A stretch of DNA of 64,000 nt, from the NCBI RefSeq assembly GCF_023015905.1, contig NZ_JALKBD010000005.1, positions 124,001 through 188,000 of the forward strand, in the 5' to 3' direction. The position numbers and the translations under genes were made by a program. Positions 4,934 through 30,832 of the stretch are shown here, piece after piece. The notes under the pieces were generated by a model. The model was not told the DNA's origin. It made no database searches and worked only from the letters and a program-made list of their open reading frames with translations. The first letter of the stretch is position 1, and each line of letters begins with the position of its first letter. This DNA comes from Arenibacter sp. F20364. Lineage in GTDB: Bacteria > Bacteroidota > Bacteroidia > Flavobacteriales > Flavobacteriaceae.

Positions 4934-4968
4934 TTTGCCTATGGTTTCTAAAAAAAAGTCTATCTTTG
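4934..4968 (+). promoter_or_regulatory. Promoter of rpsO
   Basis: TTTG (4934-4937) and TATCTTTG (4961-4968) are 23 bases apart, matching the flavobacterial promoter pattern. The rpsO start is 53 bases downstream. Confidence 0.75.
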
Positions 4969-5021
4969 CGGCCTGATTGAAAATCAATCATGTACATAAA
5001 AATCATTAAAATAATATTGGA

Positions 5022-5291
5022 ATGTATTTAACTAAAGAAGTAAAGGCCGAGATTTTTAAGAAACACGGCGGGGAAGAAAAAAACACAGGTTCTGCGGAAG
5101 GGCAGATTGCCTTGTTTACCCACAGAATCAATCACTTGACCGAGCATTTGAAAAAGAATCGTAAGGATTTCAACACGGAGCGCTCATTGGTGAAGTTGGT
5201 AGGTAAGAGAAGATCTCTTCTAGATTATTTAATTAAGAAGGATATCCTTAGATATCGTGAAATAATTAAAGAATTAGGAATTAGAAAATAA
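5022..5291 (+). CDS. rpsO: 30S ribosomal protein S15
   Basis: 89 residues, the exact usual length. It contains the conserved TGSAEGQIA segment (residues 22-30), the LTEHLK...RKDF region and the LVGKRRSLLDYL motif. S15 binds the central domain of 16S rRNA early in assembly of the small subunit. As in many bacteria it is followed by pnp, but here a strong terminator and a separate leader lie between them, so the two are probably transcribed largely independently. Confidence 0.98.
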   Translation: MYLTKEVKAEIFKKHGGEEKNTGSAEGQIALFTHRINHLTEHLKKNRKDFNTERSLVKLVGKRRSLLDYLIKKDILRYREIIKELGIRK

Positions 5292-11229: not shown

Positions 11230-11522
11230 ACCCGAAAATTCCCTTTCACAATTACGTTAACGATATCACAATTAACAGACTGCCCTTAGATCTAATCAGT
11301 AACTTTAGTTGTCCCATCAAATTTAAGCGACTGATAATGAATTTATTATAAATTCAAGATAATTACTTATCAAACCTTTTTTACAAGCCATTACCTCCCC
11401 TCAAGATAAGTTTCAAGTACTGCATTTATTGGAATTATTTAGAACCAAGAGGAGTCCAGCAACCCCTTAAAAAAACGGGGCGTAACCGAAAAGCCACACG
11501 AGTAGGAAATAAATTCTATACT
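11230..11522 (+). promoter_or_regulatory. Non-coding leader with possible structured RNA
   Basis: 293 bases without a gene. TAACTTTA at 11299-11306 resembles a -7 box, which would give a leader of about 210 bases. Two foldable parts stand out: ACTTATC and GATAAGT (about 11366-11412) as a 7-bp inverted repeat around a pyrimidine-rich loop, and AACCCC / CGGGG (about 11460-11481) followed by a GGC/GCC pair in the stretch up to 11495. The segment GAGGAGTCCAGCAACCCC recalls riboswitch-type sequence but I could not assign it to a known class. No downstream poly-T terminator hairpin is obvious. Confidence 0.35.
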
Positions 11523-29630: not shown

Positions 29631-29719
29631 GGGATTGGCTACGCCCTTCCCTCAAAGCTCCGCTTTGAAAACCACAAAAAGTCGCGCTTCGCCGAACTCC
29701 AAAAAAGAAGCGAGCTTCA
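29631..29719. repeat. 89-bp direct repeat, copy 1
   Basis: Matches 29758-29846 with two differences. It contains a CAAAGC-TCC-GCTTTG hairpin and ends with the first arm of the tRNA terminator. The two copies are offset by 127 bases. Confidence 0.9.
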
Positions 29720-29757: not shown

Positions 29758-29846
29758 GGGATTGGCTGCGCCCTTCCCTCAAAGCTCCGCTTTGAAAACC
29801 ACAAAAAGTCGTGCTTCGCCGAACTCCAAAAAAGAAGCGAGCTTCA
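29758..29846. repeat. 89-bp direct repeat, copy 2
   Basis: Second copy of 29631-29719, ending in AAGCGAGCTTCA. Here that sequence is followed by its complement, forming the tRNA terminator; copy 1 lacks the complement. The duplication therefore seems to have started in the trailer of the tRNA gene. Confidence 0.9.
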
Positions 29847-29862: not shown

Positions 29863-29890
29863 GCACAACCACTTTTTTGTGGTTTATCCG

Positions 29891-29964
29891 TGACCCCGGA
29901 GGGATTCAAACCCCCAACCCTCAGAGCCGAAATCTGATGCGCTATTCAGTTGCGCCACGGGGCC
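29891..29964 (-). tRNA. tRNA-Arg (anticodon UCG)
   Basis: 74 bases folding into a full cloverleaf. The acceptor stem GGCCCCG pairs with CGGGGTC with one G-U, the discriminator is A, the anticodon stem is CAGA / TCTG with loop TTTCGGC, so the anticodon is TCG (29928-29930), reading CGA. The T arm is GTTTGAATCCC. CCA is not encoded. Its first 23 bases overlap the end of the GIY-YIG gene on the same strand, and a second copy of positions 1-34 lies about 280 bases upstream (see 30208-30306). Confidence 0.95.
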
Positions 29965-30199
29965 TTATATTTAATTTTCTCCAACGTCTACCTGCAGCCG
30001 ATTTTAGATACTTTTCTCGTTCTCTAGCTGCCAACCTGTTTTCGTAATCCTCCGTCAGGATTACTTCCCAAGGTACATAAGCCTTGGTCGATTTTGTCTT
30101 TCCTGAATTATGCTGCTTGATTCGAACTTCTATATTATCCGTAATCCCAACATAATATCTTTCAAAACTACTACTATATATTACATAGACCTTATACAT
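29942..30199 (-). CDS. GIY-YIG nuclease domain protein overlapping tRNA-Arg
   Basis: 85 residues, nearly all one GIY-YIG domain: VYVIY and YYVGIT (residues 4-20) form the motif, Arg26 is in EVRIKQHNSG and the metal-binding Glu is in REREKYLKS. It resembles the small stand-alone UPF0213-type proteins common in Bacteroidota. The last seven codons (RPRGATE) and stop are read from the 5' end of the tRNA-Arg gene. Upstream of its start is a broken copy of the same tRNA 5' half. The domain cuts DNA in homing endonucleases and UvrC; here it could drive mobility of the unit, which is inference. Activity is not proven. Confidence 0.85.
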   Translation of the reverse strand: MYKVYVIYSSSFERYYVGITDNIEVRIKQHNSGKTKSTKAYVPWEVILTEDYENRLAAREREKYLKSAAGRRWRKLNIRPRGATE

Positions 30200-30207
30200 T
30201 CTCTATA

Positions 30208-30306
30208 AAATCTGATGCGCCCCGCCCGAACGTGCCAACGATTATTCAATTACAACTTCCCTACCACGTTCGGGCACGGGCGGGTATTCAGTTGCGCCAC
30301 GGGGCC
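30208..30306 (-). pseudogene. Partial tRNA-Arg: 5' half interrupted by a 64-bp insert
   Basis: On the minus strand bases 30306-30285 equal positions 1-22 of the intact tRNA-Arg, and 30220-30208 equal the next positions through T34. The intervening 64 bases (30221-30284) are absent from the intact gene. Similarity begins exactly at the mature 5' end and stops after the first anticodon base. No 3' half is present, so no functional tRNA can be made from this copy. Confidence 0.85.
30221..30284. repeat. 64-bp palindromic GC-rich insertion
   Basis: Ends CCCGCCCG and CGGGCGGG are complementary, and CCCGAACGTG (30225-30234) pairs with CACGTTCGGG (about 30265-30274). The middle is AT-rich (TTATTCAATTACAA). 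This is the form of a small REP- or MITE-like element that has inserted into the tRNA half. Confidence 0.75.
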
Positions 30307-30382: not shown

Positions 30383-30832
30383 TTACATTAAATTCTTTTT
30401 TACAATAGTAGATATAGTCTTCCCATCTGCCTGTCCGGCCAATTTCTGGGAAACGATCCCCATTACCTTTCCCATATCCTTCATCCCTGAAGCTCCAATG
30501 GCATCTATGGTCTGCACCACTACTTTTTCTATCTCTTCCTCGGTCAATTGCTCTGGAAGGAATTTTTCGATGATCACTGCTTGTGCCAGTTCTGGTTCAG
30601 CCAGATCCTCGCGTCCCTGCTCCTTATAGATAGCCGCACTATCCTTGCGCTGCTTTACCAATTTTTGAACTAGCTTAATTTCATCTTCTTCCGACAGTTC
30701 CGCTCCTGGACCTGTTTCGGTCTGCGCCAACAATAAGGCTGATTTTATAGCTCGTAACGACTCCAATGCCACCGTATCCTTGGCCTTCATTGCAGCCTTC
30801 ATATCTTCCATTACCCTCTGCTGTAAACCCAT
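30383..30832 (-). CDS. GatB/YqeY domain protein
   Basis: 149 residues, all helical: MGLQQRVMEDMKAAMKAKD at the start, KQRKDSAAIYKEQGREDLAEPE in the middle and the GxxDxGKVMG-like motif (GMKDMGKVMG, about 117-126) near the end. The domain is shared with the tRNA-binding tail of GatB, suggesting a tRNA-linked role, but stand-alone YqeY proteins have no assigned function. It follows ftsZ, as commonly in this family, but a terminator separates them. Confidence 0.9.
   Translation of the reverse strand: MGLQQRVMEDMKAAMKAKDTVALESLRAIKSALLLAQTETGPGAELSEEDEIKLVQKLVKQRKDSAAIYKEQGREDLAEPELAQAVIIEKFLPEQLTEEEIEKVVVQTIDAIGASGMKDMGKVMGIVSQKLAGQADGKTISTIVKKNLM

Follow-up and report, generated by a model that had tools for sequence, protein, structure and literature searches.

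A small GIY-YIG nuclease gene beside tRNA-Arg in Arenibacter: a probable copy of a large family of mobile elements at tRNA genes

How does a small nuclease gene come to lie between a complete tRNA gene and a split, partial copy of that same gene? The question is raised by the window studied here, a stretch of 64,000 nt from Arenibacter sp. F20364 (GCF_023015905.1, contig NZ_JALKBD010000005.1, positions 124,001-188,000, forward strand). On its minus strand, yqeY is followed by tRNA bases 1-22, a hairpin, tRNA bases 23-35, 8 nt, a GIY-YIG ORF and an intact tRNA-Arg(UCG). The features of the locus are:

29890-29964, minus strand: intact tRNA-Arg(UCG), the target gene (ARAGORN; Rfam 58.2 bits)
29942-30199, minus strand: GIY-YIG nuclease gene of 85 codons (Pfam GIY-YIG, PF01541, 4.9e-15)
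30200-30207, minus strand: spacer of 8 nt between the relic and the ATG
30208-30220, minus strand: relic identical to tRNA-Arg bases 23-35; the duplicated half ends inside the anticodon
30221-30284, minus strand: GC-rich hairpin of 64 bp (palindrome P, CCCGCCCG...CGGGCGGG type), splitting the relic between tRNA bases 22 and 23
30285-30306, minus strand: relic identical to tRNA-Arg bases 1-22 (direct repeat 22/22, spacing 342)
30383-30832, minus strand: yqeY (Pfam YqeY), the conserved neighbour upstream of tRNA-Arg and our anchor for empty sites

We propose that this locus is probably one member of a large family of mobile elements, each about the size of a gene, which reside at tRNA genes and come with a long target duplication.

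The window locus and its nuclease

The initial annotation had described a split 5' half of tRNA-Arg, an 85-codon GIY-YIG gene and a complete tRNA on the minus strand, and ARAGORN, Rfam and Pfam bore this out. Two further statements were also correct: the window relic parts from the tRNA sequence beyond the first base of the anticodon (standard position 34), and without the insert the two copies lie 278 bases apart (342 - 64 = 278). The direct repeat scored 22, against a maximum of 12 over 40 shuffles, and the 64-nt insert is predicted to fold into a hairpin of -16.1 kcal/mol (z -3.6), an equal stability being found in 0 of 200 shuffles. The whole unit measures about 280 bp plus the hairpin. 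At its 3' end the ORF runs into the target: its final 6-7 codons, together with the TAG stop (29942-29944), fall within the tRNA gene, the first 23 bases of the intact tRNA coding for the ORF end and stop. This tRNA gene is the sole tRNA-Arg(UCG) among the 33 distinct tRNA genes inspected in the genome.

The nuclease gene stands alone, as had been claimed, with no Rfam intron family at the locus at E values up to 1; a Pfam scan of five neighbouring genes (YqeY, FtsZ, FtsA, a sulfatase and an LRR protein) revealed no integrase. Group I introns in tRNA anticodon loops carry a nuclease gene and have their target in or near the anticodon; such an intron with a homing endonuclease was rejected on the Rfam result, the tRNA being intact and splicing unneeded. 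Integrative elements that target tRNA genes carry an integrase and an attachment-site repeat and usually restore the 3' end of the gene, and the neighbours scanned and the small size of the unit do not match this description. Elsewhere in the window, an 89-bp direct repeat (29631-29719 and 29758-29846, 98% identical) lies just beyond the tRNA gene, downstream and away from the element. The only two other Rfam matches at gathering score are a DUF805 RNA (11444-11512) and an S15-Flavobacteria leader (4961-5024).

The PF01541 match and the conserved Tyr, Arg and Glu place the protein in the GIY-YIG superfamily. An alignment of 29 relatives contained eleven invariant columns, including Y5, Y16, G18, R26 and E62, and we take the invariant Tyr, Arg and Glu to be the catalytic residues, as in I-TevI and SLX1. 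The nearest sequence neighbours were 1zg2 (3.7e-12) and SLX1 6seh (5.7e-7). Foldseek, run with an AF2 model of the window protein (pLDDT 90, pTM 0.78), returned UPF0213 and Slx1 first and then I-TevI, with TM scores of 0.55-0.66 by query and all E values above 0.001. Judged by these closest solved relatives in sequence and predicted fold, the protein would be of the UPF0213/SLX1-like type. Over the first 78 codons of six Arenibacter copies, one of which (L006) carries an in-frame stop, dN/dS was 0.06-0.10 at dS 0.33-0.54, values indicating that the nuclease gene is under strong purifying selection. In-frame stops are present in copies such as L006, L027, L040, L045 and L056. This small GIY-YIG nuclease of ~75-85 codons is apparently active.

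Relatives of the nuclease beside tRNA genes

The initial annotation had proposed a search for small GIY-YIG genes near tRNA genes. Protein similarity alone, applied to GTDB contigs with no regard to tRNA genes, yielded 73 loci, which together with two copies from the Arenibacter genome itself made 75. An adjacent, co-oriented tRNA gene was present in 70/75, with the nuclease gene preceding the tRNA in 60 loci (gene-first) and following it in 10 (tRNA-first). Two of the five exceptions lie at contig ends and have relics (L021, L063); one has a 3' relic and no adjacent intact tRNA (L059), another a tRNA-Met 3' relic before the gene (L064), and the last is unclear (L046). The 63 tree rows were labelled with 14 isotypes (Arg 28, Leu 12, Gln 5, Asn 4 and ten others with 1-2 each). 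By record title, the family occurs in Bacteroidota, several Patescibacteria lineages, Omnitrophota, Nitrospirota, Ignavibacteriota, Planctomycetota, Cloacimonadota and Lentisphaerota. An element limited to Arenibacter or to tRNA-Arg was rejected, relatives spanning many phyla and isotypes.

In the class Bacteroidia, 195/295 genomes had a match at E up to 1e-8. When the 30 best-matching genomes were each represented by their best locus (L281-L310, our own included), a tRNA gene lay within ~300 bp in 28/30 and within 150 bp in 25/30, tandem copies being counted by the nearest copy. The two loci with no tRNA nearby, L289 and L309, bear what by eye are apparent relics of a tRNA T-arm (L289 was inspected through the refetched copy L316). 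As a control we have taken 30 loci of weaker UPF0213-like small GIY-YIG relatives, from 28 genomes picked for a weak best match; a tRNA lay within 330 bp in 4/30, one of them on the opposite strand. The Arenibacter genome holds four other GIY-YIG ORFs: for three of them the stretch retrieved contained no tRNA, and the fourth gene was not placed. It also holds a second family member, 38% identical, which adjoins tRNA-Pro (L002 and L083, at two tRNA-Pro(UGG) genes). In one tRNA-Pro relic the T-arm is replaced by a different hairpin, and the other tRNA-Pro(UGG) gene also has a relic.

At least 7741 protein clusters matched the family profile at E up to 1e-10 among the 7996 candidates scored, which were those sharing most words, and NCBIfam had no family matching the window protein. 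Used as a query, this protein matched 1 of 50,697 phage records and 2 of 72,556 plasmid records, all distantly; carriage by phages or plasmids was rejected on these near-empty results. A search of open-licence PMC papers, preprints aside, found no description of a tRNA-linked GIY-YIG family in bacteria.

We have compared the tRNA isotypes with the nuclease tree, which is built on few columns and leaves 23/65 inner branches open. Isotype changed 21 times on the tree, against a mean of 32.6 and a minimum of 28 in 300 shuffles (57 rows, 7 near-copies dropped). An all-Leu clade of nine rows (support 100/98) joins Bacteroidota, Nitrospirota and Patescibacteria lineages. As far as the sequences allow such a tree, nuclease clades stay with one tRNA isotype from phylum to phylum.

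In several loci (L157, L236, L311, L376) the tRNA is accompanied by regularly spaced tandem copies of the gene. The longest array inspected, in L311 (G227), has 10 GIY-YIG copies after tRNA-Met at a 457-bp period, and L312 (G284) has 8 copies.

Relics, palindromes and empty sites

Each of the two arrangements goes with its own duplication. In gene-first loci it begins near the mature 5' end and stops near the anticodon, leaving a 5' relic before the gene and a full tRNA after it. In tRNA-first loci it starts within the tRNA and extends to the end of that tRNA, so that a full tRNA precedes the gene and a 3' relic follows; it continues through the terminator in L033, L066, L299, L323 and L320. 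The relic score exceeded all 200 shuffles in 53/67 testable loci (46/58 gene-first, 7/9 tRNA-first), flanks being too short in 3 further loci. The 14 misses were L009, L010, L011, L019, L020, L028, L032, L038, L044, L053, L065, L068, L071 and L073; in L009-L011 and L038 a palindrome splits the relic, and its removal lifts the score to 14. Gene-first genes mostly end at the first base of the tRNA, the stop codon lying inside the tRNA in 35/60 gene-first loci, 0-15 nt before it in 16/60 and farther away in 9/60, and in tRNA-first L033, L210, L308 and L323 at or near the D-loop of the relic. Both classes are found at one tRNA-Arg site (L210 and L171) and inside one nuclease clade of the tree. Restoration of the tRNA 5' end, as the initial annotation had it, holds for the window and the gene-first class; in the mirror class the tRNA stands upstream and the 3' part remains behind the gene. 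A breakpoint fixed at position 34 was not upheld, gene-first relics ending at about bases 27-43 once the palindrome is removed.

Where does the duplicated half come from? In gene-first loci whose relic starts at base 1 and scores 13 or more, the first 22 bases of the relic had the local tRNA as their closest match in 27/27 cases, ahead of every different tRNA in the set. Because of this local match, the half looks like a target duplication and not like a piece carried in by a donor, contrary to the earlier view of a unit that carries a tRNA half of its own. In a few loci some upstream sequence is duplicated too (L056, L057 and, by eye, L074), and L057 and L074 contain more than one half of a second tRNA.

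Relics also occur without the gene. Upstream of a tRNA-Leu(UAG), L076 (G000:C135) has three stacked 5' relics and no GIY-YIG gene; two of them bear different palindromes, and the stack is a set of scars of repeated events. In L217 tRNA-Arg is preceded by three tandem units of ~58 bp with relics of tRNA bases 1-18 and no gene, perhaps a non-autonomous form. In the Arenibacter genome 7/33 tRNA genes were flagged for relics, those for Thr and Arg-ACG by a 3'-end copy only, which could be something other than a relic.

The 64-bp insert of the window, first described as an interruption of the tRNA half, belongs to a recurring kind of palindrome. A GC-rich palindrome could be excised cleanly, with a better tRNA match, in 31 loci. 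Its position was at tRNA bases 21-24 (the end of the D-loop) in 18/31, at base 9 in 5/31 and at bases 32-33 in 3/31, the rest lying elsewhere; the long window hairpin, of the same kind by eye and with imperfect arms, stands outside these 31. Palindrome type tracks the nuclease clade, with 4 changes on the tree against a shuffled mean of 12.4 and a minimum of 9 (300 shuffles; 35 rows with a named type, the type "other" being excluded), and this link is correlative. There are also relics with no palindrome, such as the third Leu relic. In L047 the same palindrome is found at the same anticodon site in relics flanking a gene and an intact tRNA-Leu(CAA) on both sides, as if the element had entered an already interrupted tRNA.

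Beyond single loci, the two palindrome patterns searched in the Arenibacter genome were confined to tRNA relics (the first pattern misses the long hairpin of the window). One exact palindrome, CCTGCCTGCCGGCAGGCAGG, was searched in Bacteroidia and found in 32/295 genomes; a purely tRNA-bound palindrome was rejected, 26 of the 29 places inspected having no tRNA within 500 bp. The nuclease was present in 28/32 palindrome-bearing genomes versus 167/263 others, a modest link tallied by eye, with genomes outside the match list taken as negative. In IMG/VR, 33 stretches matched the palindrome, among them one with an adjacent tRNA (L130), one with a family gene (L137) and one that is tRNA-relic-like by eye (L109).

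We have then read the same chromosomal site in related genomes, a comparison with empty sites that had likewise been suggested. In Flavobacteriaceae yqeY precedes tRNA-Arg across the family; the yqeY anchor was located in 117/120 genomes, one per genus, and 110 of these 117 loci were read and rescored. A same-strand tRNA lay just downstream of yqeY in 107/110 (absent in L223, L240 and L245). The nuclease gene or a fragment of it was present in 9/110, namely our own locus (L141), L157, L167, L171, L173, L180, L210, L218 and L236. Upstream relic scores in these nine were 19-22 in five, 10 in L167 and L218, 7 in L173, where a gene fragment stands with no relic, and 6 in L210, a tRNA-first locus whose relic is downstream. 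Another 3/110 had gene-less 5' scars scoring 13-18 (L181, L204, L217), and 95/110 had neither gene nor 5' relic, their upstream score being at most 9 in all 95, with flanks at empty sites often short, which lowers scores. In 4 of these 95 (L151, L160, L227, L233) a copy of the tRNA 3' end lies downstream (scores 14-17), and 91 yqeY loci were empty on both sides. These four, and the tRNA-Arg(ACG) of the Arenibacter genome (L104), have a copy of about bases 57-75 and no detected family gene; the copies may be scars of the mirror class or unrelated integrase attachment sites. In L158 a decayed relic suspected by eye proved to be at chance level (gapped score matched by 36/200 shuffles); this locus has an ORF between yqeY and tRNA-Arg that is TraR/DksA zinc-finger-like by eye.

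Within one genus, 2/12 species were occupied, and the tRNA of an occupied site was letter-identical to that of 7/10 empty species. Most related sites have neither gene nor relic, and the insertion is thus, in the simplest interpretation, the derived state; the rebuilt tRNA is unaltered. This gave a direction to the initial proposal that the gene had entered the tRNA gene and left the old 5' half behind. The gene is thus present in some alleles and absent from others at one site, as expected of a homing gene, both among the yqeY-anchored loci and in this genus; no empty site within the same species was found. Self-protection by a resistant tRNA allele was not seen, the rebuilt tRNA being identical to those of empty sites.

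Explanations and known systems

We are highly confident that the family is a mobile element targeted to tRNA genes, and we lean slightly towards cut-and-repair homing with target duplication as its way of moving. The unit would be little more than one gene of ~75-85 codons; on entering a tRNA gene it would duplicate part of that target. The nuclease would cut the DNA of the tRNA gene, and repair from an element-bearing copy would bring the gene in, i.e., homing. Only outcomes that keep one whole tRNA would survive, and two classes would therefore result. The relic would later collect palindromes at preferred places. As a guess, folded DNA may be the substrate, given the SLX1-like fold and the position of palindromes near arm boundaries.

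A rival account is homing by ordinary homologous recombination, in which a "relic + gene" piece, linear or circular, uses its tRNA half as a homology arm and the repeat is no staggered-cut duplication. Regularly spaced tandem copies beside the tRNA agree with this account, and for phage SegB, recombination joining the 5' end of the tRNA to the 3' end of segB has been proposed as the route of amplification (PMC13096335). However, a carried arm is disfavoured because donor sequence would then be expected in the relic, and all 27 relics were local, even where related nucleases sit at another isotype (Ala in L014, beside the Arg clade); we regard this account as doubtful. It would be a further step down in probability to see the palindrome as the primary, REP-like mobile unit, which the nuclease moves, the gene and the spare tRNA being a surviving rescue arrangement. 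The agreement of palindrome type with nuclease clade, the preference for the end of the D-loop, the confinement of the two patterns to relics in the Arenibacter genome and the excess of nuclease-bearing genomes among palindrome-bearing ones all speak for this unlikely reading, but most of the Bacteroidia palindromes inspected are away from tRNA genes, some relics are palindrome-free and the genome search covered one exact palindrome.

A domesticated nuclease, adopted as a tRNA-linked host system (for instance for tRNA-gene copy control or tRNA-directed defence) and kept by co-transcription, would fit the strong purifying selection, the co-orientation with the tRNA and the stop codon so often placed within it. 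We consider it quite improbable, however, as the gene is patchy both at the yqeY site and within one genus, and the broken copies, arrays and gene-less scars resemble element turnover. Passive tandem duplication of a tRNA gene with a hitchhiking GIY-YIG gene and no mobility finds some ground in L057 and L074, with their larger part of a second tRNA and some upstream sequence; it is disfavoured and very improbable, given that adjacency in 70/75 loci over many phyla, isotype tracking and sites free of both gene and relic would be unexpected.

Beyond the mobile, tRNA-targeted element that we favour, a more specific version is put forward tentatively, as a possibility and not as our expectation. 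It would be an autonomous element class in which a bare SLX1-like GIY-YIG domain of ~80 residues recognises folded arms of tRNA genes in DNA, cuts at the cloverleaf base and loops and inserts its gene alone, with a long duplication of the target. It would often borrow a stop from the tRNA, and it would co-move a cognate palindrome into relic arms. If this were true, the elements would rank with the smallest self-mobile units, and tRNA loci in Bacteroidota, Patescibacteria and other phyla would be reshaped by them. On the favoured reading itself, thousands of genes labelled at most "GIY-YIG nuclease family protein" would gain a biology as selfish tRNA-site elements, and the half-tRNA relics and hairpins beside tRNA genes would be accounted for. 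The family also offers a small, testable system for asking how a nuclease could repeatedly attack an unchanged, needed gene without host death.

Short GC-rich palindromes with preferred insertion sites are known from the GC clusters of yeast mitochondria and from bacterial REP/RAYT. The likeness is in a palindrome type linked to one enzyme lineage, which is correlative here; in REP/RAYT, dispersed palindromes are mobilised by a cognate enzyme, and here dispersed copies are mostly away from tRNAs and palindrome type tracks the nuclease clade. SLX1 cleaves branched DNA with its partner SLX4. UPF0213 and SLX1 are the nearest neighbours of the window protein in sequence and structure, whereas the weaker UPF0213-like relatives in Bacteroidia are seldom near a tRNA. 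The pairing of SLX1 with SLX4 is also given in PMC7017083.

A stand-alone homing nuclease is a kind of element already known. SegB of phages T4/T6 is, in the sections of the reports used here, a free-standing GIY-YIG homing endonuclease beside tRNAs of many isotypes, with reported cutting within tRNA genes and tandem amplification of tRNA plus segB (PMC13096335, PMC2988022). The present family shares with it, as far as those sections go, the stand-alone GIY-YIG gene adjoining tRNA genes of many isotypes. Unlike SegB, which those sections survey in phages, it occurs in bacterial genomes and is almost missing from phage records; its protein is just a GIY-YIG domain of 75-85 aa, with UPF0213/SLX1 as the nearest neighbours, its insertions leave a local half-tRNA relic, often with a palindrome, and its cutting of tRNA genes is presumed.

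In fungal mitochondria (Allomyces macrogynus, Glomus), mobile ORFs at atp6, atp9, cox2 and nad3 combine an endonuclease ORF with a duplicated gene end, according to the part of the account drawn on (PMC3630166). The targets there are protein genes and the inserted end is thought to be donor-derived, whereas here it matches the local tRNA; no tRNA and no recurring palindrome figure in that part of the account (PMC3630166). The full combination of features seen here is thus absent from the SegB and fungal accounts, within the portions used. What the fungal ORFs and the present family have in common, in the portion used, is a target that stays whole while its old end becomes a relic (PMC3630166), and the elements proposed above would be a bacterial counterpart both to the intronless homing of phages and to these gene-end-swapping mobile ORFs.
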